Shown here: piece by piece, positions 42,612 through 56,042 of the stretch
Position numbering within the stretch: position 1 is the first letter of the stretch
Layout: the number at the start of each line of letters is the position of its first letter
Assembly: GCA_005116835.1 (NCBI GenBank)
Contig: SWDM01000016.1
Coordinates: 186,001-250,000, forward strand
DNA from: Nitrospira sp.
Lineage (GTDB): Bacteria > Nitrospirota > Nitrospiria > Nitrospirales > Nitrospiraceae
DNA: 64,000 nucleotides
Direction: 5' to 3'
The notes under the pieces: model-generated
Seen by the model: only the letters and a program-made list of their open reading frames with translations
Told to the model about the DNA's origin: nothing
The model's database searches: none
Position numbers and translations under genes: made by a program

Positions 42612-43859
42612 CTACTGACAGACAGCCGCGATATTCGCGCCATTGTTGCTGGGGGTAAACCAGTTGTGCGGACCACGATCGTCGTTTTTGAAAACAAACG
42701 TGTCGTTCTCCGACAACCAGAAATCCGGCAGGGGGTTGTTGTTCAACATGGCAGTCTGCAAGGCGGTGATCGCCGCGTTCGTTCCGGAGACGGCATTGAC
42801 TGGGGCCACTTCCACCCCAGCTGTGCGGGTGATGACGTTCCAATCTGCCCAGTAGGGGTACCGGCCACAACGAAGAGCCGTTAACCGAGCCACTCCGGTG
42901 CCAAGCGCTCCCGCGTTGACCGGCTGCCCGCCGATGGCGACTTGATAGGCGCCGTTGGGGAAGTTCGTCGCATTCACCGAGTCACTGTCGACGTAGCCGA
43001 TCGAGTTTTGATTGGTGTTGATGCAGGTCACCACGTTTGAAGAACTGGCATTGGCGATGTTGGTCGCGCTCGCGGTTCCGTTGATCCCCCCGCTCCAGAA
43101 CTTGGTGCGCATGAGGGTTTCATCCAGCGTGGCCAATGTGCCTGAGCCAACCGTCCTCTGGCAGGTAACAATCGCGCCCGATCCCGCAGATACTGAGTAG
43201 CCGAGGTCGGCCCAGTTGAGCACGTTCCCGGCAAGGATCTGCCGGATTTCATTCTCGCTCAGCGACGTCAGGTTTGTCCCACTTCCATTCCGCACGTTGC
43301 CGCCCACCACGATGGAAAAGGGAACGATCACCGTCGGCGTGGTGGTCAAATGACCGGATGCCGGTGGGTTAAGCGTAGTCCCAAACGCCGACTGATGAAT
43401 GGAACTCGCCTGGACATCGGATGCTCCCCAATGTACCGGCAAGGATTGCGTGGGAGTGGCGGCCGGGCATACGGACCGATTGACAGTCTTGCCGAGGATG
43501 GTGACGGGAGTCCCGGCTGGGCAGGTTGCGACATTGAGGTAGACCGCGGTGCCGACTGCCCCGTTCGGTTGGAACAGATAGCCATCAGCCGAAGCGGTGG
43601 CGCTGTATCGAATACGGGAATTTGCGACTCCGTTCACGGTGCACTGCCACTCATACCTGTTGGGCGTTCCCTCGCTGGACACGAATAGGAGCGGCGTGGG
43701 AGTGGCCGCACAGATAGAGGCAGGGCTTGTCCCAGCAAACAGACGCCCCGCTGACGAGCCTGCTCCGTTGAGGACGAGTTGCGCCTGGGCACTTTCCGCC
43801 GCCAGCGCAAGCCCTGCCGCGCCCACGAGGGCTATGGCTACTTTCGACATGGTTTTCAT
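42612..43859 (-). CDS. PstS-like periplasmic substrate-binding protein
   Basis: A 415-residue exported protein with a signal peptide (VAIALVGAAGLALAAESAQA, cleavage near 26) and a PBP-like domain. It shows LNGAGSSAGRLFAG (about 30-43), PVHWGASDVQASS (about 142-154), LSENEIRQILAGNVLNWADL (about 202-221, typical of PstS-type proteins) and SIGYVDSDSVN. No permease or ATPase genes are near, so it is not an ordinary transport operon; it may be a secreted phosphate- or ligand-binding protein. There is no exosortase tail. AAGGAG lies 6 bases before the ATG. Confidence 0.8.
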   Translation of the reverse strand: MKTMSKVAIALVGAAGLALAAESAQAQLVLNGAGSSAGRLFAGTSPASICAATPTPLLFVSSEGTPNRYEWQCTVNGVANSRIRYSATASADGYLFQPNGAVGTAVYLNVATCPAGTPVTILGKTVNRSVCPAATPTQSLPVHWGASDVQASSIHQSAFGTTLNPPASGHLTTTPTVIVPFSIVVGGNVRNGSGTNLTSLSENEIRQILAGNVLNWADLGYSVSAGSGAIVTCQRTVGSGTLATLDETLMRTKFWSGGINGTASATNIANASSSNVVTCINTNQNSIGYVDSDSVNATNFPNGAYQVAIGGQPVNAGALGTGVARLTALRCGRYPYWADWNVITRTAGVEVAPVNAVSGTNAAITALQTAMLNNNPLPDFWLSENDTFVFKNDDRGPHNWFTPSNNGANIAAVCQ

Positions 43860-43921: not shown

Positions 43922-44662
43922 CTATGCCGCATCCGGCCGCGCGCCAGACATACGGCGACGAGCCATACCCACGAGTCCGATCACACCAGTCGCAAAAAGC
44001 ACCACCGCCGCCGGCACCGGCACTGCGCTAACTACGAAGGTACCGTTCGCCTGACTCAGGAAGGCCGACCCAACCGTGGTCAGGGTGTTTGCCGCCCCAT
44101 TTCGTTGAAGCAGATTGAGGACGGTATTGATGTCCGCCGATCCCCTGCGCGCGGCAGGAATGGAGGCGCCAAGGCTGTCGTTTCCCGAAGCATTCATGTT
44201 CGTGCTAAAGGATAGGGCATCGGTCGCCAAATACAGGTTCCTCGCCGGATCGGCTGCTACGCCTAACGGCCCCCTCCAGTTCAAAAGCACGTTTTCGTAG
44301 TTGGCCGGCAGAACCTGGTTCAGTTGCTGCGCGGTAAATTGGGCCGCGGTGGAGGCACTCCCAAAGAACATCGAGGTGTTACTGTTGTTTCCGACAATCG
44401 TGTATTCGATCGTGTTGGGACCTCCCACTCCAGTCGGGCTGAGTGCGCCAAGGACGCTCGATAGGTTGAGGTTGATACCGTTCGTGAGCAAGCTCGAGAA
44501 CGAACCCAGGTTCCTGATATACTCAGTGCCATTGCCGTAGAGAACGAGCACTGCATCGCCCGGTGCAAATGTCACCGCATGCGCCGACGTCACAGGGCCG
44601 GCAAGCGCCGCTGCCGCAACCGCCGCAACCGCCATACGTTTCACTATTGATAGACTCTTCAT
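43922..44662 (-). CDS. VPLPA/PEP-CTERM-type secreted protein
   Basis: A 246-residue exported protein with a signal peptide (AVAAVAAAALAGPVTSAHA, cleavage near 28) and a beta-rich, Asn/Ser-rich body of unknown function. The tail SAVPVPAAVVLFATGVIGLV is followed by GMARRRMSG (about 214-242), an exosortase sorting signal. The ATG at 44662 has GGAGG about 8 bases upstream; the frame is open 24 more codons without a ribosome site. It is 63 bases upstream of the PstS-like gene. Confidence 0.85.
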   Translation of the reverse strand: MKSLSIVKRMAVAAVAAAALAGPVTSAHAVTFAPGDAVLVLYGNGTEYIRNLGSFSSLLTNGINLNLSSVLGALSPTGVGGPNTIEYTIVGNNSNTSMFFGSASTAAQFTAQQLNQVLPANYENVLLNWRGPLGVAADPARNLYLATDALSFSTNMNASGNDSLGASIPAARRGSADINTVLNLLQRNGAANTLTTVGSAFLSQANGTFVVSAVPVPAAVVLFATGVIGLVGMARRRMSGARPDAA

Positions 44663-44984
44663 CGTCGGCTCCTCCTTGTTAAGATAAAACCTGACTTTCC
44701 CTTGTCCATGAATTTCCTCCGCTGCTTCTCCCAATCACCTCCTTTTGGTTTCCTGCAGCCGTCGAACTGGTAGGTTTTGCCCACTCTGATAGCTATCTAT
44801 GTGACAGTCTGGTGTTACAGACTCCTCAGCACTCAGTTGGAAGACGGTAAACCTTAAAGGGTCTGCCAAAGAGGCAACTTGTGAGTCCAAGCCCTTACAG
44901 GGTCTTTTTATCCGGCAGAAGTTACAGGAGTGTCTGGGTTTGCTTCTCAGAGTGGAAACAGTGCGTTAAGAAAGCGATGCTCTG
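44663..44984. other. Intergenic leader region without a gene
   Basis: No coding region is seen. On the minus strand it contains CTGTAAC and CTGTCAC (44820-44801, spaced 13 bases) just before ATAGATAGCTATC. A similar TAGCTAT block lies upstream of the TpsB gene near 53975. It is possibly the promoter of the 43922-44662 gene; the evidence is weak. Confidence 0.3.
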
Positions 44985-45091: not shown

Positions 45092-45730
45092 TTAAGCTGG
45101 AGGGAAGAACTTGACGATCACAGAATTCCGGTCCATGCCCTCAGGAGGAGGCCTGACTTGGACGAGTTTCGACAGGGCATCGAGCGCGGATTGGTCGAAG
45201 AGCATACTCCCGGAGGAATTGAGCAGACGGTACTGCAACACGCGCCCTTGCTCATCCAGCACCAGTTCGCACATCACTGCATATTCCAGATCGTCGGAGA
45301 GCGTCGGCGGCTGTTGATACTTCTCTTGAATCGTGGCGGTCAGAATGTCCGTGTAGCCGGCAAACTTGCCGCGGCTCTTCCCGATTGCGAAGGGGTTGGC
45401 GTCCAGTTGCGGCGGACCGGTCGGCGCATCGACCGCTTTTGGCGGAGGAGGCGCTTCGGCTGTCGGCGGTGGTGGAGGCGGCGCTTCCTGAGGTTTGGGC
45501 TCAGGTTTCGGCGGTTCCGGTTCCGGCTCCGGTTCAGGCTCTTTTTCAGGCGGTGGAGGCGGTTCTTCCTTCTTGAATGCGTTGAGCTTGTAGACCTTGA
45601 TGAGATTCTGGCCCCAATCGGTCTGCGAGACCCAATAGAGACCGCCACCGATCCCAAGATGGATCACCCCGACGATCAACAGCGTCGTCCCGAGCTTGCT
45701 CTTCTTCTTTTCAAAGCCTTTGTAGCCCAT
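45092..45730 (-). CDS. TonB-like energy-transducing protein
   Basis: A 212-residue inner-membrane protein: a basic N-terminus, one membrane segment (LGTTLLIVGVIHLGIGGGLY, about 13-32), and a Pro/Glu/Lys-rich periplasmic spacer (about 55-105). The C-terminal TonB-like domain includes YTDILTATIQEKYQQPP and VMCELVLDEQGRVLQYRLL (about 152-170). It would work with ExbB and ExbD encoded upstream. Its C-terminus resembles TonB/TolA C-domains of the TIGR01352 kind. A 289-base repeat-rich gap separates it from exbD. Confidence 0.83.
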   Translation of the reverse strand: MGYKGFEKKKSKLGTTLLIVGVIHLGIGGGLYWVSQTDWGQNLIKVYKLNAFKKEEPPPPPEKEPEPEPEPEPPKPEPKPQEAPPPPPPTAEAPPPPKAVDAPTGPPQLDANPFAIGKSRGKFAGYTDILTATIQEKYQQPPTLSDDLEYAVMCELVLDEQGRVLQYRLLNSSGSMLFDQSALDALSKLVQVRPPPEGMDRNSVIVKFFPPA

Positions 45731-45736
45731 TGTGAG

Positions 45737-45897
45737 ACTCGTGAAACGTCAAACGTGAAACGTGAAGCGTTGATCGGGAATGGAGTTTCTAGTTTCAGGT
45801 TTCATGTTGCAGGGATCATCCTTCGAAAACTTGAAACAAGAAACTTACAACCTGAAACGCTTTAACGAGATACGTTTCACTCTTCACGAATCACTTG
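45737..45897. repeat. 7-bp periodic inverted repeats (GTGAAAC and GTTTCAN units)
   Basis: GTGAAAC, GTCAAAC, GTGAAAC, GTGAAGC at the left pair with ACGTTTCACTCTTCAC at the right. Nested inside, GTTTCTA, GTTTCAG, GTTTCAT, GTTGCAG pairs with the reverse series near 45828-45862. The whole is a double nested hairpin in the exbD-tonB gap. Confidence 0.75.
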
Positions 45898-46019
45898 CAG
45901 GATGCTCAAAAAGTTCGTCAGCAAGGCCGCAGCGAGTGAAGACCCGAGGCGTACCCTTGCGGTACGTTGAGGGTCTAAACGATGCGAGAACGAAGCTGGC
46001 GGGCTTTTTCAGCATCCTG
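45898..46019. repeat. 122-bp imperfect palindrome abutting the exbD stop codon
   Basis: CAGGATGCTCAAAAAG at the left end mirrors CTTTTTCAGCATCCTG at the right, with further pairing inward to GCGTACC/GGTACGT around a short CTTGC loop. The last base is next to the exbD stop codon (46020). Short reading frames inside it are artefacts. Confidence 0.85.
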
Positions 46020-46436
46020 CTAAGGCTCATTGATTGGTTTCGTTGCGATAGCCAACTCTTCAACCGGAATCCGCTGGAGAATGTCCAATACAGCCACAAC
46101 ATGTTTGTACTCCACGCCGGAATCGCCGCGGAGCACGAGCGGTAGCTTGCCGCCCTTGGCCGCTTTCAAATCTCGAATCAGTTTTTCCAATTCCCCGAGC
46201 TTGATCTTTTCCTCATCCATATATATGTCGCCGCCCTTTTTCACCGAGATGGTCGGCGTGTTGCTCTCCATTTCAGTTTCATGCGGCGTAGCCTCCGGCA
46301 ACTTTAGTTCGATGCCTTGTACCATCGCCGTTGTGGTAATAATGAAAATCACGAGCAGCACCCAGGCCAGGTCGAGCAACGGGGTCATGTTGATATCCGA
46401 CACCGCAGCGTAACTCTTTTTCGAAAAACGTCTCAT
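46020..46436 (-). CDS. exbD: ExbD/TolR-family protein
   Basis: A 138-residue inner-membrane protein with a single N-terminal membrane segment containing the proton-path Asp (INMTPLLDLAWVLLVIFIIT, about 15-34, Asp22) and a periplasmic domain with SVKKGGDIYMDEEKI and LVLRGDSGVEYKHVVAVLDI (about 101-120). With ExbB it forms the proton-driven motor that energises TonB. GGGAG lies 5 bases before the ATG. Confidence 0.88.
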   Translation of the reverse strand: MRRFSKKSYAAVSDINMTPLLDLAWVLLVIFIITTTAMVQGIELKLPEATPHETEMESNTPTISVKKGGDIYMDEEKIKLGELEKLIRDLKAAKGGKLPLVLRGDSGVEYKHVVAVLDILQRIPVEELAIATKPINEP

Positions 46437-46445
46437 CTTTTCTCC

Positions 46446-46614
46446 CAGTAAGGTTCTAAGTTCTAAGTTCTGGGTTCTGAGTTTTGGAAGCGTCCTTCAA
46501 CTCAGAACTTCCAACTCAAAACTCAGCACTTCTCTCTTTCGCCTCACGATTAACGCTTCACGTCATTCATCCATCGCCTAACGCTTAACGCTTCACGAAT
46601 AACGTTTCACGTCT
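46446..46614. repeat. 7-bp periodic repeats (GTTCTGA and GCTTMAC units) between exbB and exbD
   Basis: GTTCTAA, GTTCTAA, GTTCTGG, GTTCTGA, GTTTTGG at 46452-46486 face the complementary series at 46497-46530. A second set (46548-46614) has CGCTTAACGCTTCACG heptamers. They fill the whole 178-base gap between exbB and exbD. Confidence 0.75.
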
Positions 46615-47397
46615 TTAATGTCCTGTCGCCGCGCCGGACGGTTCCGACTCTTGACGGTGACCGCCAGGCCGGTAGTCTTCAGGATCTTCTTCCGCGGACG
46701 ACGCGCCGTTCTTCTCACGGAGAAAGTCTGTGATGAACACGGTCTCGAGATGGGCTGCGAAGTTATCGAGTTCCATCGTGAGGGTTTTCGTCTTGGTCAC
46801 GAGAAAGTTGTAGCAAAAGAGCGAGGGGATCGCGACCATGAGGCCCGCGACCGTCGCGATGAGCGCCGAGGCAACGCCAGGCGCCATGGTCGCGAGGGTG
46901 GCCTGCTGGGCTCTGCCGATACCGGCAAAGGTGTCCATCACCCCCCAGACCGTCCCGAGCAACCCGATAAAGGGTCCGCCGCTGATCGCCGTCGCCAGCA
47001 CGATCATCCCCGATTCCAACCCCACCGCCGCCTCACCGAGCACACGCTCCAGTGCGATCCTCACGGCGCTCATGCCGTGATTCGGGATCTTGTCGGTCCC
47101 ATACTTATCCTGCTGTACTTTTAGTTCCTCGCAGCCTCCAAAATAGAGCTCGTACATAGGAGAGCCCTGGAGCTGTTTGATCGGTCCCTTACTGAAGATC
47201 ACCAGGGGGCTCTTCGCTTTGGAATAGAGATCGAGAAAGGTTCCGTTCCGCTGCTTGGCCTTCGCCAGTTGGCGGAACTTGTTGATGATGACCGTCCAGC
47301 TGACCAACGAAAACACCAGCAAGACCCCGATCGTGATCTTGCCTTCCAGCGTCGCGTGATTCAACGCAAACGCCACTCCACCCGAACTCATATCCAT
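46615..47397 (-). CDS. exbB: ExbB/TolQ/MotA-family proton channel protein
   Basis: A 260-residue inner-membrane protein with three membrane helices: about 17-37 (ITIGVLLVFSLVSWTVIINK), about 128-150 and about 170-195. It has the family core GPFIGLLGTVWGVMDTFAGI (about 140-159) and TMAPGVASALIATVAGLMVA (about 168-187). The C-terminus is a charged Glu/Gly-rich tail. It starts 12 bases after the TpsA stop with AGGAG upstream, which ties the Ton motor to the two-partner secretion genes. Confidence 0.9.
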   Translation of the reverse strand: MDMSSGGVAFALNHATLEGKITIGVLLVFSLVSWTVIINKFRQLAKAKQRNGTFLDLYSKAKSPLVIFSKGPIKQLQGSPMYELYFGGCEELKVQQDKYGTDKIPNHGMSAVRIALERVLGEAAVGLESGMIVLATAISGGPFIGLLGTVWGVMDTFAGIGRAQQATLATMAPGVASALIATVAGLMVAIPSLFCYNFLVTKTKTLTMELDNFAAHLETVFITDFLREKNGASSAEEDPEDYRPGGHRQESEPSGAATGH

Positions 47398-47409
47398 ATC
47401 AAGAATCTC

Positions 47410-50400
47410 CTATCCGCCTGACTGCGGTTTCACATCCACTTGAATGATGACACCATGTTTCATCTTGATCGACTGGGCGACGGTGGTCCCCTTCTTGTCC
47501 TTATCGTTCGATTTGGATGCCACCTGTTTCGCCTTGGCATCCGACCCCTGATCTGCCGCCCCGTCCTGCGCGTCTGAACTCGCTTTCACGGCGCTGCTCG
47601 TCGTTGCCACCGTCGAGGAACTGGAGGCGGCGGAAACGGAACCGGTTGTGCCGGTAATGCCGCCCAAGCTGCCGCCGCCCGCGCTGCTCGAGCCGCTCAC
47701 GCTGCCGCCGCTGCTCGACCCTGTGACCGAACCGCTGAAGCTGCCGCTCAAACTGCCAGTCACAGCTCCCGCAGCAAAACGGGTCAGGCCGGCAATGAGA
47801 CCGCCCTGGAGATCCAGCGTTCCGTTCGGCGCCAGGAGATCGATGCGGCGGCCCCTGATCCCCGCCACCGGCACGACAATGTCGCCTTGCCGAGCCTCCA
47901 GCCTCACATTCCCCAATTGCTTGCTCAGGATGAAGTTCTCGAACACTTGGCTGAAAATGGGTTCTTGTTCCGCCAGCAACTGCCTTTCCTTCGCCCGCAG
48001 AGCGGTCGTATCCTGACCCAGGAACCCCAACTTGGCAATTTCATTTCGTACCTTATTGATCTCATCATTGTCGAATCGAGGGAAGTTCAGCGATTCCCCT
48101 CTCGGCTGGTCACCCGCGTGGTAGGTAAAGATCCCGCTCCCTGGTACGTCGACTTCGATGAACTGACTAGGCAACGGTCTTCCTGTCACCGGATCGATTT
48201 GCTTAATTTCGATGATCTGTGTGATGACCTCGTTTCTGCCACCGCTACCGGCGCTAATGTTGCCCCGGAGACTTATCAGATTGATGTCCCCAGCCTGGTA
48301 CGGCTCAGTGCCTGGTTGGGGAAATGCCATTGTAGCAATGCGCGATTTATCGACATCGATATCTCCAGTCGCCTTGATGTCGATCGCGCCGCCGAAACCA
48401 GTCACGATCCCTTTTAAATCCTTAGGACCTGCTAGATCGGCCACGTTAGACCCAACCTTGATCCCACCCCCTGTCGCTCCCACTTCGGACACGTTCGAGG
48501 CCTGGACCAGCACTACGGTCCCCCCATCACGCACAACCGTGCCGTCAGGCTGAACATGCACCACCGGTTTCACGAGCACTAGATCGCCATTGTAAATGAC
48601 CGCCTTGCCGTCGACACGGAGGACTTCCAGCCGAGCGCCGTTGGGCACGACATTCCCGCTGTTATCGAGCATGACCAACTGACCATTTTGCTCGACAAGC
48701 GCCACATGCACTGTCACCGGCCCATCCAGCCTTTTTTCATTTCCTGTCAGGACCAGGGTCTTCCCTTCGAATTTCACCTCTTGGGGGACAATCTGGCCAT
48801 CTGCATTTCTCGCCATGACGGAAATTCTCGTCCCGTCGGAACCGACTACCCCTGTACCGGGCAATGTATTGGCAATCCCGCTCTTGGTGGGCCCATGGAT
48901 CGAAATGGAGGCCCCGTTATAGGTCGCGATCCTGGACCGATCCATGATAATGTCGCCCCCGACCGCAATATCCAAAAACCCTCCTTGGTTCTGGTCGGTG
49001 CTGGGGGTGGGAAAACGACGGAAACGGATTCCATCGCTGGATCCGAGGTCGAGATTGCCGCCGACGCGGACCCTGCCAGTCCCGGTTCCTGCAAAAGCAA
49101 TCTGTCCCGTTCCGCTGGCCAGGTTGATCGTACCACCGACATCCACGAGCGACTCCACTCCTCCCGGCGCAGCCAGCGTGGCAGTGACTGTATCAAGATT
49201 GCCTGGCGCTGAGATCGTCACCTTCTTCTTAAATAGAGCGCTCCCAAAGTTCAGAATGAGACCTGCGATATTGCCATCGCCGTCGATCTTGGCTTGCTGA
49301 GCAGTCTTGGTAGTGGGATGGCCATCTGTAATACCGGTAAAGCCGGCCGTAAGGCTGACCTCGGTCGGAGCATGGTCCGCTATCGCGTTCGTCTCCTGGA
49401 AAGTTGCCAGCAGCAGATTAAGGAACGGAATCCCACCATTTTGCGCAGAAGGTCTGACCCCGTTCAAACGCGCTGGGTCGGCCTGCAACAGTGTGATGCT
49501 CCGTTGTGCAAGGGGCGCAGGACCTACAGGGAATGTAACCGGATCCCCCACCGGAACCGGACTGGGCGGAGCCCCTTGAGGGACAGCTCTTGTCAAATAG
49601 GGAGCGAGATAGGGATTGAAACTGACGAGAGGGTCGGTCTTGTCGACGAGGACCCACTGCCCTCCTCGACCCACCTCACCCACAAATACATATTCGGACG
49701 CCTGGGGGATAAAACTCGCACCCTGCCCGTTTTTCTCATTGGGAGGAAGAGGCGCCGCCTCCCTGCCAGGTACGGAAGGTGGGGTTTTTCTCCCGACCGC
49801 TTTGTCCGCTGTATTGAGGAATGAGGATAGGACCGGACTCTTCGCCGCTTGGGCGAGATCAACCAGGACCCAGGTTCCTCCCTTTCCAAACGTCCCGACA
49901 TAGATCCATTGGTATTGGCTGTCCAAGAGCGGGGGGGTCCCGAACGCGGTTCCCTGGATATTCTTTCCAGCTTGAAAGGCCACAGTTCCGGTAGGTGATC
50001 CCCAGAAGGAGAGATTGTTTTCGACAAAAATATTTCCCTTCGTCACGATCGCCTCAAACGAAGCTGGGTAGACCGTAACCCCCGAGTTCTTGTTACTCAC
50101 TGCAAACAAGGACGTCGGGTTCAGGAACAGATCTCCTTGATCGACCTTCACCGACACCTTGTTGTTCGGGTCTACGGATATCGTCTGGTTGGTTTGTGGA
50201 TCTGAGGCCTTATCCGTCAGTCCTTTGTCCTGAATCCGGCCGAGATAGACATTCCCTGTCGTTGCATGCAGCGTAATCTGGCCCGATGCCATCGTGAGCT
50301 GCGCGTACTGATCGTTCGAGCTAGCGCCGCTTCCCCTCAGGGGCCCACCTATCTGCTGCGCGGTAACCACGGCTTTCCCGTTGGTGAGGAGAAAGCCTGG

Positions 50401-52071
50401 TCCGAATAACCGGCCATTGATGAGTCCTCCACCGACAAAATTCCCACCGGCAGTGATGGTCAAGTCCCCGACCCCGTCGAGTCGAATTCCCCCGAACCTG
50501 TCTATGGCTACTCCCGATGCAAGTCTGTGATCCTTGACGAACACGCTGGGGCTTATGACATCCTGCCCCGCCGTCAGCGTGATATTGCCACCGGCTTCTG
50601 AGGTGCGGATCGTCGAGAGGGCACCCTGCGCGACCAGGTTCCCACCGACATTCGTCGATTGCATGAGGCTGATGCTGCCTCTGGTGGCGGTGAAGTCCAG
50701 GTTTCCACCGAACCCTGTCTCGATGAACGATTGGTTGAACCGTACGTGGTTATCCGCCGTGCCGACGTAATCCCAAGCCACACCGGACCCGGTGTTCCTG
50801 AGCGAAAAGTTATCAAAGAGGAGATCGCCGGTGGAGGCGGTAAATTTGATCGTGCCGCGTTGGCCGACCGGGAGCTGCCACTCACCTGCAGCTAAGTCAT
50901 AGGCTCCTGTGACTGTGAGGCCGCTCCCGGGAGCCGACTGAAATTCCACCAGACTTGCGCCGCTGTTGGCGAACGAGTGGATCTCCGCCGCATCGACGGA
51001 ACAAACACTGCCGTCCAGACAGGTCGGGTCGATGAGGAAGCGGCCGCCTGTATAGCCTTGTGACGCGCGACCATAGAATTGGCCGCGGAGACTGACGCTC
51101 GCTGCGCTGATCTCCGCAAAACCTGCGTGCCCTCCATTCTTACCGCCCGAAACATCGACGACGGCACCCTTCTGAAAGGTGGCTGTGCCATTAATTAAAT
51201 TGGCAATCGCGCGGATTGTCCCCCCGGCCGAGACTCCCTCGTCGCTGCCTCTGGCGATGGTGCGGCTGCCGTCCTTGAGGGTTACCGCGTTGGTGGCCAA
51301 CAACTCAATTGTTCCGTTCCGCTCTTTCACACTGTTCGCTTGAATGAGCCCCTCTTGATTCACAACGCGGCCGGCTAAGGTGATGTTGCCGCCATCGGCA
51401 ATGAGATCCTTGAGGTTCACCGCCCGTCCGACTGGGTTGGAGAGTTCGGCGAGAAACCCTCGCCCATCCGGCCGGTTCGACAGAAAGGCTGTCGTGCCGG
51501 CGGCCAAGACGATATTGCCTCCGGGACTCCTAATCACCCCGCTGTTTTCGACGTTGGGCGCGAGCAGATAGACGCCATGGTGCGATGCATTGATGAGGCC
51601 CATGTTTTTCACCGGGCCTTCGAGACCAGTTCCCTGAAACAGATAGTGGCCGGCGAGAAAATTCGCGCTCGATATATTCAGAGACGACGCCACCAGCCCG
51701 CCCACATTGAGCTGCGAATTAGGACCGAACAGGATGCCGTTCGGGTTCAACAGGAACAGCCGGCCCGTGGCATTGAGCGTCCCGTCAAAGCTTGTGGGAT
51801 TGATATCGCCGATCCTGACGAGCATCGACGCATTGGCCCCTTGGACGACGTTGACCGTTTCATTGTGCAGGGTATTGAACCCCTGAGCATGGACGATCGA
51901 ACTAAGCGCAGAGGATGTGATGGTCAAGTTTGATGTGCCGACACCGTCGAACGATACTCCGGTGGTCGGGCTGCTCAGACCGACAGGGCTGGCCAACACG
52001 ACTGGTACGATCGCCAGCTGGAACAGATATGCGCAGAGGATGACGCTCGCAAGGATCCGTAGTTTGTTCAT
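47410..52071 (-). CDS. TpsA exoprotein (filamentous-haemagglutinin-type N-terminal domain)
   Basis: A 1553-residue secreted protein. The signal peptide spans 1-28, and the TPS secretion domain includes NPTSFDGTLNATGRLFLLNP (91-110) and NGILFGPNSQ (111-120). A long beta-helix-like region with G-N-I-T-L, G-T-I and G-D-I repeats follows. Two near-copies of QWIYVGTFGKGGTWVLVDLA / EYVFVGEVGRGGQWVLVDKT lie near 740 and 822. The end is low-complexity Ser/Gly (about 1440-1510) with a Lys-rich tail. It is expected to be exported by the TpsB protein encoded upstream, remaining attached or released. Unlike classical adhesins it is followed by exbB-exbD-tonB. Confidence 0.88.
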   Translation of the reverse strand: MNKLRILASVILCAYLFQLAIVPVVLASPVGLSSPTTGVSFDGVGTSNLTITSSALSSIVHAQGFNTLHNETVNVVQGANASMLVRIGDINPTSFDGTLNATGRLFLLNPNGILFGPNSQLNVGGLVASSLNISSANFLAGHYLFQGTGLEGPVKNMGLINASHHGVYLLAPNVENSGVIRSPGGNIVLAAGTTAFLSNRPDGRGFLAELSNPVGRAVNLKDLIADGGNITLAGRVVNQEGLIQANSVKERNGTIELLATNAVTLKDGSRTIARGSDEGVSAGGTIRAIANLINGTATFQKGAVVDVSGGKNGGHAGFAEISAASVSLRGQFYGRASQGYTGGRFLIDPTCLDGSVCSVDAAEIHSFANSGASLVEFQSAPGSGLTVTGAYDLAAGEWQLPVGQRGTIKFTASTGDLLFDNFSLRNTGSGVAWDYVGTADNHVRFNQSFIETGFGGNLDFTATRGSISLMQSTNVGGNLVAQGALSTIRTSEAGGNITLTAGQDVISPSVFVKDHRLASGVAIDRFGGIRLDGVGDLTITAGGNFVGGGLINGRLFGPGFLLTNGKAVVTAQQIGGPLRGSGASSNDQYAQLTMASGQITLHATTGNVYLGRIQDKGLTDKASDPQTNQTISVDPNNKVSVKVDQGDLFLNPTSLFAVSNKNSGVTVYPASFEAIVTKGNIFVENNLSFWGSPTGTVAFQAGKNIQGTAFGTPPLLDSQYQWIYVGTFGKGGTWVLVDLAQAAKSPVLSSFLNTADKAVGRKTPPSVPGREAAPLPPNEKNGQGASFIPQASEYVFVGEVGRGGQWVLVDKTDPLVSFNPYLAPYLTRAVPQGAPPSPVPVGDPVTFPVGPAPLAQRSITLLQADPARLNGVRPSAQNGGIPFLNLLLATFQETNAIADHAPTEVSLTAGFTGITDGHPTTKTAQQAKIDGDGNIAGLILNFGSALFKKKVTISAPGNLDTVTATLAAPGGVESLVDVGGTINLASGTGQIAFAGTGTGRVRVGGNLDLGSSDGIRFRRFPTPSTDQNQGGFLDIAVGGDIIMDRSRIATYNGASISIHGPTKSGIANTLPGTGVVGSDGTRISVMARNADGQIVPQEVKFEGKTLVLTGNEKRLDGPVTVHVALVEQNGQLVMLDNSGNVVPNGARLEVLRVDGKAVIYNGDLVLVKPVVHVQPDGTVVRDGGTVVLVQASNVSEVGATGGGIKVGSNVADLAGPKDLKGIVTGFGGAIDIKATGDIDVDKSRIATMAFPQPGTEPYQAGDINLISLRGNISAGSGGRNEVITQIIEIKQIDPVTGRPLPSQFIEVDVPGSGIFTYHAGDQPRGESLNFPRFDNDEINKVRNEIAKLGFLGQDTTALRAKERQLLAEQEPIFSQVFENFILSKQLGNVRLEARQGDIVVPVAGIRGRRIDLLAPNGTLDLQGGLIAGLTRFAAGAVTGSLSGSFSGSVTGSSSGGSVSGSSSAGGGSLGGITGTTGSVSAASSSSTVATTSSAVKASSDAQDGAADQGSDAKAKQVASKSNDKDKKGTTVAQSIKMKHGVIIQVDVKPQSGG

Positions 52072-52086
52072 GGCAGCATGTTCCAG

Positions 52087-53922
52087 TTAAAATGCCAGGC
52101 CGACGGAGAAATGCACGAACGTGTCGCCTTGTTGCGTGAGCGCTGTATCTCTGAGCGCGAAGCCTTGATCGATGATGAGCTGCCCTACATCCTTGGGAAA
52201 CTTCACTCGAATCCCGGCCCCCACCCCTTCGAGCCGGAACTTCGACGTCTGCCCTAGCTGCGCCTGCTGCACCCAGAGTTGGGCTGCATCGTAGAAGGCC
52301 GCGAACTTTACTCTGATGGTGTAATCGGCGCTGCGACGGCGCTGCCACATCCGATCGATCGGGATCTCGATGAGTTCCGGGGTCGTCAGTTCCGCTCGGC
52401 CGCGGACGGCATTGTCGCCAAGCGATTCGAACTGGCCGTAGCCGCGGACCGTATCGAAGCCTCCGGCAAAATACTGCTCTGCTGGAATCAGCGGCTGGCT
52501 CCCCCATTGACCGTCAGCGTGAAGCGCCAGCATAAAATCTCCCGGCAACGACTGAATGCGGTCGAGCCCGCCCTGTAGCACGGCAAACGTCCCAGTCGAT
52601 CCTCTGCGCTGGCCCGGCGGGGCGAACGGATTGCTTGGATCCCCGGAGAAATCCTCTTTCGATCCCCCTGGAATCATTCCCGCCACATAGCCCTTGGCCG
52701 TCGCGGTCAGTCGTGTGTAGCCCCAGGCATCGTAATAGGTTCCGGTGTAGTTCACGCTGGCCGGGGTGTATTGAATAGGCCCCAGTACTGTGGCGGTACC
52801 AAGGTTGCCGGGAAAGGTTGCCTCGGTAGCCTTCAGGTGTTTGTAATCCATTCCCAGTGACAACGAATGGGTGCCGGGAAGGTCTTTCGCGATCGGCATA
52901 AAGTACCGGAACCCCGAGACTGTGGCATTACCGGAAACCGATATATTGCCGCCGCCGACAAACGCCGACCCACCTGCCAGCACCGATTTACTGGCCGATT
53001 GCGACCCATACAGACTCAGCAAGTGGTCGGGCCAGACAATGGGGACGACGAAGCTTGCGCTGTAGCTTTGTACCTGCCCCCAGTCGGTCGGTGTCTGCAC
53101 GGTGCTGACCGTGAAGATTTCGTCTCCGCCCAACAGGTTGGTATGCTGTAGCTCCGCCACTAAGCGATTTGCAGGTGTCGAGATCGCCCCTCTATTGTCT
53201 CCCTCGATCTTTCCGTGAACCGGAAGCCGGTCTTTTACTTTCAATTCCAGACTGATCAAGCCCTTCGATTCCCCTGGCTTGAGCACCGGTACAACCTTCC
53301 GATCCGGATGGACGTTGAGGAGATTCAATTCTTTCATGAACGTCGGTTCATACAACACATTCCCTTGTGACAACGATGGCAGTTTATCTAGGATTTCGTA
53401 TTGCCTAAAATACTGATTGCCGGTCACGGCGATCGATCCGATCCGCCCCTCCACGACAAGTAGACGAACCGTCCCTCCTTCAATCGTTTGTTCAGGAATC
53501 GTGACGAGGACGGTCGGATAGCCGGCGTCACGATAGGCCTTCTCCAGCTCATTCTTGGCCTGTTCGATATCTTTCAGAATCAATCCCTTGCGTTTATACT
53601 TCGCAAGAATGGCATCAACTTTTTCGGTCGGAAGCAGGCTATTTCCCTCAACAAGATACTGATCCACCGCGAAGCCCGATGATTCTGGTTGAATTTTCGG
53701 TTCTTGCCCCTGAGCTGGTTGCGAGACTTCCGACGAACTGGACTGGGTGGCTGCTATCGATTCTCGCGACACTGCCCCACCCACGGCTTGCGCCATGCGA
53801 ATGCCGGGAGCGGACGAGGATGCCCGTTGCCTAGATTCCCCTCCAAATGACACGCTCGGAAGGGCCAGGGCCTCACCCATAACCGCCCCGCTCAACATGA
53901 CGATCACGATCCATGTGAACAA
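52087..53922 (-). CDS. TpsB outer-membrane transporter (FhaC/ShlB family)
   Basis: A 611-residue outer-membrane translocator: a signal-like N-terminus, a linker of 80 residues, then POTRA domains (VDQYLVEGNSLLPTEKVDAI, about 85-104, and VEGRIGSIAVTGNQYFRQYE, about 156-175). The 16-strand barrel includes the FhaC-type motifs VRGYGQFESLGDNAVRGRAE (about 490-509) and GAGIRVKFP (about 576). The last residues form a beta strand ending in Phe. The start is read as TTG with GGGAG 9 bases upstream; ATG at 53898 is an alternative. It is 15 bases upstream of its substrate gene. Confidence 0.88.
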   Translation of the reverse strand: MFTWIVIVMLSGAVMGEALALPSVSFGGESRQRASSSAPGIRMAQAVGGAVSRESIAATQSSSSEVSQPAQGQEPKIQPESSGFAVDQYLVEGNSLLPTEKVDAILAKYKRKGLILKDIEQAKNELEKAYRDAGYPTVLVTIPEQTIEGGTVRLLVVEGRIGSIAVTGNQYFRQYEILDKLPSLSQGNVLYEPTFMKELNLLNVHPDRKVVPVLKPGESKGLISLELKVKDRLPVHGKIEGDNRGAISTPANRLVAELQHTNLLGGDEIFTVSTVQTPTDWGQVQSYSASFVVPIVWPDHLLSLYGSQSASKSVLAGGSAFVGGGNISVSGNATVSGFRYFMPIAKDLPGTHSLSLGMDYKHLKATEATFPGNLGTATVLGPIQYTPASVNYTGTYYDAWGYTRLTATAKGYVAGMIPGGSKEDFSGDPSNPFAPPGQRRGSTGTFAVLQGGLDRIQSLPGDFMLALHADGQWGSQPLIPAEQYFAGGFDTVRGYGQFESLGDNAVRGRAELTTPELIEIPIDRMWQRRRSADYTIRVKFAAFYDAAQLWVQQAQLGQTSKFRLEGVGAGIRVKFPKDVGQLIIDQGFALRDTALTQQGDTFVHFSVGLAF

Positions 53923-54124: not shown

Positions 54125-55045
54125 ATGAATCGGCATCAGTGGGTACGCCGCGCGCTGCTCGGTACGTTCGTCACGGCGTTCACATTTATTCTCGCGCACT
54201 CCATCAATGCGTTTGTCTCTCATTCGCTCACAACATCGACGGATTCAGTCCTGCCTGTGATGGCGCAGAAGAAAGCATCATCAGAAACATACGACGCGAA
54301 TGCTCTTGCGGAATCTATTCTAGCTGCACGCCTGTTCCCGCTCCCTTCCGATGCAGGCTCGCTATCGGGCGGCGGTCAAGCCACTTCTCCTCCGGCTCCG
54401 CCACTCAATGTCGCGAAAACGATTCTCTTGGCTGGCACTGCCATGAATTCGTCTACCGGCGGGTTTGCGATTATTGAAGATCTCTCATCGAAAAAACAGA
54501 CGCTCTACCGTATTCAGGAGACTGTGCCTGGTATCGGGATGATTGCCCAGATTGAAAAGGACAGGGTTCTCTTCCGTCAGGGTTCACAGGAAGAATGGCT
54601 GAACCTTGCTATTGGAAAACTCAGCGCCGGTTTCGAACGCACAATTTCCGCTTCAGCGCAACTTGCCTCTCCACGACCGGTTTCTAAGCCAATTGCTGTT
54701 CTCCCTGTTTCGCAGGTGTCATCAAGGGGCAGGAGAACTCTCGCACGGCAAATATTGATCGACACGGCAAATAACCCGGCCCAGGTGAGTCAGCATGCCC
54801 GGCTGGTTCCCTTGATTGTAAACGAGCGGCCTCAGGGCATCATGCTGGAAGCTGTCAATCACTACAGCTTGTACGGGGAGCTAGGATTTCAGTCCGGCGA
54901 TGTTCTGAAGCGGATCAATGGGGTGGAACTCCATGATCCCACCCTGTTTGCCTCGCTATTCCAACAATTGAAGAATGAGCGGACGATCAAGATCGACATC
55001 ATCCGAGACGACCAACCCAAGACCTTGGCCCTCGACGTGCAGTGA
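54125..55045 (+). CDS. GspC-like type II secretion protein with PDZ domain
   Basis: A 306-residue inner-membrane protein with a short cytoplasmic start and a membrane segment ALLGTFVTAFTFILAHSI (about 10-27). The periplasmic homology region (about 98-160) contains KTILLAGTAMNSSTGGFAII. The C-terminal PDZ domain (about 235-306) contains QSGDVLKRINGVELHD. GspC links the inner-membrane platform to the secretin and helps choose substrates. No other type II genes are near, so it is either an outlying member of a distant cluster or an independent PDZ protein. AAGGA lies 8 bases before the ATG. Confidence 0.78.
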   Translation: MNRHQWVRRALLGTFVTAFTFILAHSINAFVSHSLTTSTDSVLPVMAQKKASSETYDANALAESILAARLFPLPSDAGSLSGGGQATSPPAPPLNVAKTILLAGTAMNSSTGGFAIIEDLSSKKQTLYRIQETVPGIGMIAQIEKDRVLFRQGSQEEWLNLAIGKLSAGFERTISASAQLASPRPVSKPIAVLPVSQVSSRGRRTLARQILIDTANNPAQVSQHARLVPLIVNERPQGIMLEAVNHYSLYGELGFQSGDVLKRINGVELHDPTLFASLFQQLKNERTIKIDIIRDDQPKTLALDVQ

Positions 55046-55256: not shown

Positions 55257-56042
55257 TTGCGCTTTCGGCATGTGATCGTTCTCCTGGTTTTCAGTAGCTG
55301 CATCTCTCTGCTAATGGCGATGTCGCCTCAACGGAGCGAAGCCGAATGGTACGTTGGAGCCTATGGGGGTTACAGCATGCCGGGGAAGTTGAGCGACGTA
55401 CAGATGCCCCTCCTTGGTGAGCGGCAGGCTCAAGCGCAGTTTCCTCAGTTCAGTCCACTTCCTCCTAATTTAGACAAACTCACCAGTTCGTTGAGCGGGT
55501 CGGACATTTCGCTGAAAAGCTCGGCGATGTTCGGAGGGAAGGCTGGGTATTTTTTCAAGGACGAAGGGTTTAATTGGCTGGGTGTAGAACTTGAAGCCTT
55601 TACCAGTCAGCCGACTATCAAGCAGCAAACTGTGGCAACCACCCTCGATGCCACCTATATCCCAGGCAGTCCAAGCGCAGGAAACCAAGCCACCTCCATC
55701 AGCCAACCCAGTACACTCCAGTTGGAGGAGTCGAGCATGCGGCTGATCACCGTCCTCTTCAATGTGGTGGCTCGTTATCCAGGGACCACCTTCCAACCCT
55801 ATGTCGGTATCGGCGGCGGCGCCTTCCATTTCAGCAGCTCGGGTCAAATTGACGGACGTCAAGTGGTGCCAGGACTCAACGCACAGTTAGGATTGAAGGT
55901 GCTGGCAACTGAGGAATGGGCGCTCTTTGTGGAAGGGAAGTACAATTACGCCACGATCACAAACCTCGATCCTGCCGGCTTTGGGCTCAGCGGCACATAC
56001 AGCGCCTTCAATGCCGTGGCCGGCATCGCGTACCATTTCTAG
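55257..56042 (+). CDS. Porin-like outer-membrane beta-barrel protein (OmpA/OmpW-type fold)
   Basis: A 261-residue outer-membrane protein. It has a signal peptide (HVIVLLVFSSCISLLMAMS, cleavage near SEA at about 29), then WYVGAYGGYSMPG and eight-strand-barrel features: FGGKAGYFFKDEGFNWLGVE (about 97-116), TFQPYVGIGGGAFHFSS (about 179) and a C-terminal strand ending GIAYHF with terminal Phe. The start is TTG, since the signal peptide requires it and no ATG fits; GGGGG precedes it. Confidence 0.82.
   Translation: MRFRHVIVLLVFSSCISLLMAMSPQRSEAEWYVGAYGGYSMPGKLSDVQMPLLGERQAQAQFPQFSPLPPNLDKLTSSLSGSDISLKSSAMFGGKAGYFFKDEGFNWLGVELEAFTSQPTIKQQTVATTLDATYIPGSPSAGNQATSISQPSTLQLEESSMRLITVLFNVVARYPGTTFQPYVGIGGGAFHFSSSGQIDGRQVVPGLNAQLGLKVLATEEWALFVEGKYNYATITNLDPAGFGLSGTYSAFNAVAGIAYHF

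Follow-up and report, generated by a model that had tools for sequence, protein, structure and literature searches.

The window analysed here, a 64,000-nucleotide stretch of a Nitrospira sp. assembly (GCA_005116835.1, contig SWDM01000016.1, positions 186,001 to 250,000), carries a two-partner secretion (TPS) pair whose genes, tpsB and tpsA, are followed on the minus strand by exbB, exbD and a tonB-like gene. Our interpretation, to which we give an even chance, is that the locus is a Pdt-like TPS with its own proton-driven ExbB-ExbD-TonB motor, and that this motor acts on the TPS as a third partner and not on a nutrient receptor. The interpretation builds on sequence comparisons covering the gene families, the motor residues, the long conservation of the locus, the co-inheritance of TPS and motor, and a tail motif on motor-linked TpsAs. 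From these we infer an action of the motor on the TPS, and we hypothesize that it may energise the secretion or the tethering of TpsA.

Searches with hidden Markov models (HMM; Pfam and NCBIfam) confirmed the families of all five genes. In the order of the row, tpsB (52087..53922) encodes an Omp85/FhaC-type outer-membrane pore of 611 aa (POTRA_2, 4.6e-19; ShlB, 6.6e-17); tpsA (47410..52071) a surface protein of 1553 aa with the TPS domain PF05860 (1.4e-13); exbB (46615..47397) an ExbB/TolQ-like proton-channel subunit of 260 aa (MotA_ExbB, 6e-29); exbD (46020..46436) an ExbD/TolR-like subunit of 138 aa (ExbD, 2.7e-25); and the tonB-like gene (45092..45730) an energy transducer of 212 aa (TonB_2, 9.3e-11; TonB_C, 1e-7). 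The intergenic gaps along the row are 15 bp (tpsB-tpsA), 12 bp (tpsA-exbB), 178 bp (exbB-exbD), and 289 bp (exbD-tonB). Coordinates and HMM results agree with an initial annotation of this DNA, in which the five genes succeeded each other on one strand with 15 and 12 bp between the first three.

ExbB and ExbD were nearest to TolQ and TolR, which gave the best NCBIfam and PDB matches. ExbB matched TolQ structures at 6.9e-28 and contains the conserved motifs GTVWG and ALIAT; it consists of the MotA_ExbB domain only, without a DUF2341/lectin part. ExbD matched TolR structures and has a transmembrane Asp in PLLDLAWVLL. When aligned to the TolQ and TolR structures the proton-path residues were intact, both the ExbD/TolR transmembrane Asp and the Thr-bearing helices of TolQ/ExbB; we take their roles to be those known from TolQ/TolR. 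The TonB-like protein is built from a single transmembrane helix, in which a His is conserved, a spacer rich in Pro and Glu, and a TonB_2 C-domain, an architecture kept in orthologs, and it matched PDB profiles weakly.

The source assembly is near-complete, Nitrospira-type and 3.94 Mb in size. A separate set on contig C10 was read, by inspection and not by HMM, as Tol-Pal because TolB-like and Pal-like proteins come after it; two other ExbB-type sets lie beside TonB-dependent receptors (C14) and beside iron-transport-like genes (C16). TolB and Pal were absent from the locus and found elsewhere in the genome, and none of the genome's seven receptor barrels (PF00593) lies in the window, all being on other contigs. 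Since Tol-Pal and Ton/Exb sets are present elsewhere, the window motor is not the general Ton or Tol set of the cell. Around two further TPS loci of this genome (C17), the nearest 9 kb or so contained neither ExbB nor ExbD.

Conservation and co-inheritance of TPS and motor

Flanking regions of 66 TpsB loci were taken from 148 sampled Nitrospirota genomes. Four loci (L071, L075, L076, and L077) were orthologs of the window locus with all five genes kept, and in two more distant ones (L070 and L072) ExbB-ExbD-TonB-porin lay just beyond a giant TpsA. Apart from L056, described below, the remaining loci, about 60 including the two in this genome, had no motor within about 9 kb, some of their contigs being short. 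A scan of GTDB contigs yielded 20 orthologs, 19 titled Nitrospira and one titled as a Planctomycetales metagenome-assembled genome. The latter (L103), with a TpsB 63% identical to that of the window, is probably a mis-binned Nitrospira contig. The five genes were together in 14 of the 14 ortholog contigs of sufficient length; one further contig stops just past exbB, and there was no counterexample. In L076 and L117 the locus is rearranged to TpsA-...-TpsB-ExbB-ExbD-TonB-GspC, with a PEP-CTERM gene between tpsA and tpsB in both and a PstS-like gene there in L076. The five-gene set is maintained in these two loci despite the altered order. The initial annotation had proposed checking the five-gene order and had named close relatives consistently without exb/ton genes as contrary evidence; close relatives proved the contrary, all 14 informative contigs having the set, and the TPS-motor core is found in other phyla as well.

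For these other phyla, 72,556 plasmids were searched with a Cupriavidus TpsB as reference, counting matches with E at most 2e-73 as close (the next was 2e-44). A close TpsB was present on 11 plasmids, a DUF2341-type ExbB was present on exactly those 11, and the two genes stood in one row in 10 of them. The usual order, seen in Klebsiella, Cupriavidus, Methylosinus, and Aquabacterium, was TpsB, (TpsA), ExbB, ExbD, TonB, Porin_5, a hypothetical protein and YbjN/PpiC. Five weaker TpsB matches that were sampled, and Variovorax SRS16, had no motor. Motor-linked ExbBs of Pseudomonadota (L134:16503-18407 and L135:31016-32677) carry N-terminal DUF2341 and LamG/ConA-like domains. Of the Klebsiella plasmids with the operon (L124 and L131), one was classed as conjugative; in L131, from K. 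pneumoniae, tpsB and ppi are both broken into two reading frames.

A tree of 96 TpsBs placed the motor-linked proteins, together with that of Methylomagnum, in one exact clade of 31 rows (SH-aLRT 95). The tree was made by a quick method and has long branches, and we place moderate trust in it. The clade spans Nitrospirota and alpha-, beta-, and gammaproteobacteria. TpsB and ExbB distances across 30 loci were correlated (Mantel r 0.89, 0 of 2000 permutations), as expected for genes inherited together. The core common across phyla is TpsA, TpsB, ExbB, ExbD, and TonB, while porin, PstS-like, PEP-CTERM, and type II secretion system (T2SS) neighbours are variable. Judged from these sequences, the pairing of TPS and motor is ancient and recurs in other phyla. 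With the intact proton-path residues and the separate Tol-Pal and Ton sets elsewhere in the genome, the conservation across phyla and the inheritance with one TpsB clade bear out the dedicated energy-transducing set of the initial annotation. The textbook view is that type V secretion runs without external energy. The retention of a dedicated proton motor by a TPS clade across phyla is an argument that one branch, at least, does make use of such energy.

A single locus among those with a nearby motor falls outside the clade. In L056 (Nitrospirota genome G144) an unrelated TpsB/TpsA pair has an ExbB-ExbD-TonB set roughly 2.5 kb away, on the opposite strand. We rejected it as a second independent association and judged it coincidental, because its TpsB does not belong to the clade, the strands of TPS and motor differ, and its TpsA lacks the tail.

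The TpsA tail and the proposed mechanism

TpsA of the window has an N-terminal TPS domain with an NPxG motif, and its gene adjoins tpsB. Its C-terminal region matched the DUF3739 profile at 99.3%; in Pfam the window TpsA stayed below the reporting level, whereas the orthologs in genomes G085 and G088 pass the cut-off. DUF3739 also lies near the C-terminus in the scanned motor-linked TpsAs of Pseudomonadota and deep Nitrospirota. Among the 148 Nitrospirota genomes it occurred in six, in five of them at motor-linked TPS loci; the sixth match is weak. Past DUF3739, an A/S/T/G-rich stretch predicted to be disordered is followed by a short strand-like motif, VIIQVDVKP, with which the tail ends (window tail peptide SIKMKHGVIIQVDVKPQ); the C-terminal model is of low confidence and was used solely for the probable disorder of the tail. 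Methylosinus has ITVEVLGYG as a counterpart of the motif, and deep Nitrospirota have LDVKVIDFV. A search of the last 115 residues for the pattern [VILFM]xV[EDQRK][VILT] found it in 34 of 34 motor-linked TpsAs and 4 of 45 motor-less ones, the matches in these four being FLVRT/FLVQT strings with different surroundings. TonB-type domains are able to accept an extra strand by pairing, so this tail motif is the best candidate contact for TonB, and a better one on sequence grounds than the TpsB linker considered below. The C-terminal part of PdtA is reportedly outer-membrane-associated, which would agree with a tail exposed to the periplasm.

In the mechanism we propose, TpsA would pass through TpsB as is usual for a TPS, leaving its flexible tail on the periplasmic side at least temporarily. 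The TonB C-domain would then contact the TPS complex, most simply by strand pairing with the conserved TpsA tail, and ExbB-ExbD would pull on the complex using the proton gradient. Such a pull could power the final step of export, keep the surface protein in place or set it free, or pass force on to it. More tentatively, the data may point to a cross-phylum class of TPS in which a TonB-like protein grips the C-terminal strand of the exported TpsA, with the proton motive force powering late export, retention or pulling. If true, type V secretion would have its first energised example, and the client of TonB would be a secreted substrate instead of a receptor.

Several points weigh against an action of the motor on the TPS. 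The tail pattern is short and was defined post hoc, and many of the compared TpsA rows are kin, so that its Fisher p serves for description only. The Nitrospira and Pseudomonadota motifs align loosely, and in most Pseudomonadota the motif is 36-67 residues from the TpsA end. In the window exbD and tonB are set apart by long intergenic gaps and a repeat, and in Methylomagnum the motor is about 26 kb from the TPS on the same plasmid, which allows a looser link. A P. aeruginosa mutant in the tonB homologue had no virulence phenotype in zebrafish embryos, where secretion was not the readout (PMC2729926), and a review of TPS describes type V translocation as powered by no energy source or gradient (PMC5422565).

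Gene neighbourhood and alternative explanations

Conserved neighbours flank the operon on both sides. A gspC-like gene of type II secretion (54125..55045, plus strand; T2SSC, 2.1e-9) is divergent from tpsB and is followed by a gene for a small outer-membrane beta-barrel protein (55257..56042, plus strand; OMP_b-brl, 1.6e-7). Downstream of tonB, on the minus strand, are genes for a VPLPA/PEP-CTERM-type protein (43922..44734; NCBIfam) and a PstS-like substrate-binding protein (42612..43859; PBP_like_2, 5.2e-11). The PEP-CTERM-type gene is kept in orthologs, either downstream of tonB or between the two tps genes, and PstS-like proteins similar to that of the window also lie beside other motor-linked TPS loci. 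A GspC-like gene adjoins the TPS-motor genes in nearly all Nitrospira loci; in L077 the operon adjoins gspC-D-E-F instead. Because the T2SS of this genome at C8:113 kb has its own gspC, the window gspC is a second copy (54125-55045; L165:8541-9437). TPS, type II secretion and PstS-like proteins are thus linked in one recurring neighbourhood. Downstream of the operon, positions 24192-44734 hold polysaccharide-type genes (glycosyltransferase, flippase-like, deacetylase, AMP-binding) and three PEP-CTERM-type proteins.

A single transcription unit covering all five genes, as in the initial annotation, is likely and not proven, because the exbB-exbD and exbD-tonB gaps are long and the latter contains a repeat. 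A promoter scan found no sigma-70-like site above chance. The repeat (45897..46020, assigned to neither strand) is a palindromic dispersed element of 124 bp with an RNA fold of -61.9 kcal/mol (z -5.2). The genome holds 42 matches to it, of which about 40 are nearly full-length and 85-96% identical, and a translated remnant was also seen between exbD and tonB of the same-genus locus L071. Both long gaps contain short dispersed repeats of the type CGTGAAACGTGAAG / TCGCCTCACGATTAACGCTTCACG (45740-45770 and 46539-46611).

Among the alternatives, one that we regard as possible, with the same reservation as the tail-gripping class, is that the motor energises uptake by a co-regulated outer-membrane protein that works with the PstS-like protein and secreted enzymes, the cargo being for example phosphate or a phosphorylated compound, and that TPS and motor share a starvation regulon without contact. 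Porin_5 follows tonB in the operons of Pseudomonadota and deep Nitrospirota, and PstS-like proteins are close by; the Methylomagnum plasmid (L123, L147), where the motor stands apart from its TPS, groups TPS and motor with a PstS-like protein, PhoU, PhoX, another alkaline phosphatase, and a porin. The P. aeruginosa locus is moreover under the control of PhoB and sigma-VreI (PMC4971064). Against uptake, Porin_5 was not found among the neighbours of the Nitrospira loci, which hold TPS and motor, the common core, and the window has no TonB-dependent receptor. Nor did any pho box near the window genes exceed chance: the window has six weak matches where 5.2 are expected, none near the operon, although PhoB sites of Nitrospira may differ.

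It is unlikely that the motor couples the TPS, through the GspC-like protein, to the type II secretion machinery or to a Tol-Pal-like envelope tethering. The best matches of ExbB/ExbD are TolQ/TolR, the GspC-like gene is near the Nitrospira loci, and T2SS genes adjoin the TPS-motor genes in Cupriavidus, Aquabacterium, Burkholderia, Variovorax VAI-C, Nitrospirota G127, and P. aeruginosa. However, Tol-Pal is encoded at a separate locus of this genome, as is a T2SS that includes its own gspC, and the surroundings of the operon in Klebsiella and Methylosinus yielded no T2SS genes.

We consider it quite improbable that TonB engages a TonB box in the N-terminal linker of TpsB and so gates the barrel, even though TpsB and motor are co-inherited and the Klebsiella TpsB happens to contain an ETVVDA-like string. 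TpsB consists of a signal peptide, a disordered linker, two POTRA domains, and an Omp85-type barrel, and its AlphaFold2 (AF2) model from a 15-sequence alignment (mean predicted local distance difference test, pLDDT, 74) matches CdiB 6wim and FhaC 4ql0 outside the linker. Residues 21-83 are predicted to be disordered (pLDDT about 20-35 over residues 21-81), and the linker, from signal peptide to first POTRA, is unconserved in the ortholog alignment. In a survey of 96 TpsBs with roughly estimated signal-peptide ends, the linker to the POTRA motif had 40-99 residues in the Nitrospira group, a median of 62 in motor-less TpsBs, and 11-37 in 11 TpsBs of Pseudomonadota and deep Nitrospirota that are motor-linked without belonging to the main Nitrospira group, too short there for an FhaC-type N-terminal plug helix H1. 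The 80-residue linker of the initial annotation exists as a stretch, but that figure counts the signal peptide, and the remaining 60 or so residues are ordinary for TpsBs. Its suggestion that the linker could hold a TonB box did not stand up: alignment, survey, and model revealed no conserved box, the linker is nearly absent in many motor-linked relatives, and we rejected this candidate.

That the genes are chance neighbours without a functional link, as the set in L056 appears to be, is hardly credible given the cross-phylum conservation, the single-clade distribution, and the one-to-one co-occurrence on plasmids, and the TPS-motor linkage is therefore not chance.

Comparison with known systems

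The arrangement itself is already known, from pdtB-exbB2-exbD2-tonB4 of P. aeruginosa and from conserved neighbourhoods published between 2009 and 2020. A 2009 paper noted the association of TPS and ExbBD with PUMA3 in several other bacteria, and also the Hxc T2SS next to the P. aeruginosa locus (PMC2729926). A single promoter transcribes phdA, pdtB, exbB2D2, tonB4, and PA0696-PA0701 (PMC4971064), and the motor was still termed 'uncharacterized' in 2020 (PMC7035377). The Nitrospirota extension, the single-clade distribution, the link to DUF3739, and the tail motif are apparently unreported in the open-access papers searched, among which we found none proposing an energised TPS or discussing DUF3739.

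Like the window, the P. aeruginosa PdtA/PdtB-ExbB2-ExbD2-TonB4 locus (PA0690-PA0701, PUMA3/PhoB regulon) has TpsB, ExbB, ExbD, and TonB in a row with TpsA nearby, T2SS genes nearby and, in relatives, a nearby PstS-like protein. Its order of porin-like PA0696, PA0697, YbjN PA0698, PpiC PA0699, and LysR-type PA0701 matches the plasmid operons. In the window, by contrast, tpsA is short and inside the operon; PhdA, VreA/I/R, Porin_5, YbjN, and PpiC were not found there, nor a pho box near its genes; GspC is the sole T2SS component; and there is a PEP-CTERM neighbour. PEP-CTERM and PstS-like genes take the place of the downstream Porin_5 - YbjN - PpiC of Pdt-like loci. The DUF3739 TPS operons of Pseudomonadota (Klebsiella, Cupriavidus, Burkholderia, Variovorax, Aquabacterium, and Methylosinus plasmids) share the TpsB clade, the core genes, a DUF3739-type TpsA, and the tail strand motif with the window. 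Their ExbBs, however, have about 550-655 aa with DUF2341 and LamG-type lectin domains, against 260 aa without these domains, and their complete TpsAs exceed 3000 aa, against 1553 aa.

FhaC/CdiB two-partner secretion has the TpsB fold and the TPS domain in common with the window but no motor genes, and where FhaC-type TpsBs have an N-terminal plug helix, the window TpsB has a stretch that AF2, from the 15-sequence alignment, predicts to be disordered. In the Hxu haemopexin system (HxuA-HxuB-HxuC) a TPS operon is likewise tied to TonB-dependent energy use; there the client of TonB is the HxuC receptor, whereas the window locus contains motor genes and no receptor. Ton and Tol-Pal motors share the ExbB/TolQ, ExbD/TolR, and TonB/TolA-like set and its key residues with the window, but they work with a TonB-dependent receptor, TolB or Pal, none of which is in the locus. 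The window locus is accordingly a Nitrospirota variant of Pdt-like TPS, with a shorter TpsA, an ExbB without the DUF2341 lectin part, no Porin_5, and GspC, PEP-CTERM, and PstS-like neighbours. The comparison turns the P. aeruginosa exbB2-exbD2-tonB4 motor into specific questions, namely whether it acts on PdtA/PdtB and whether TonB4 is bound by the TpsA tail.

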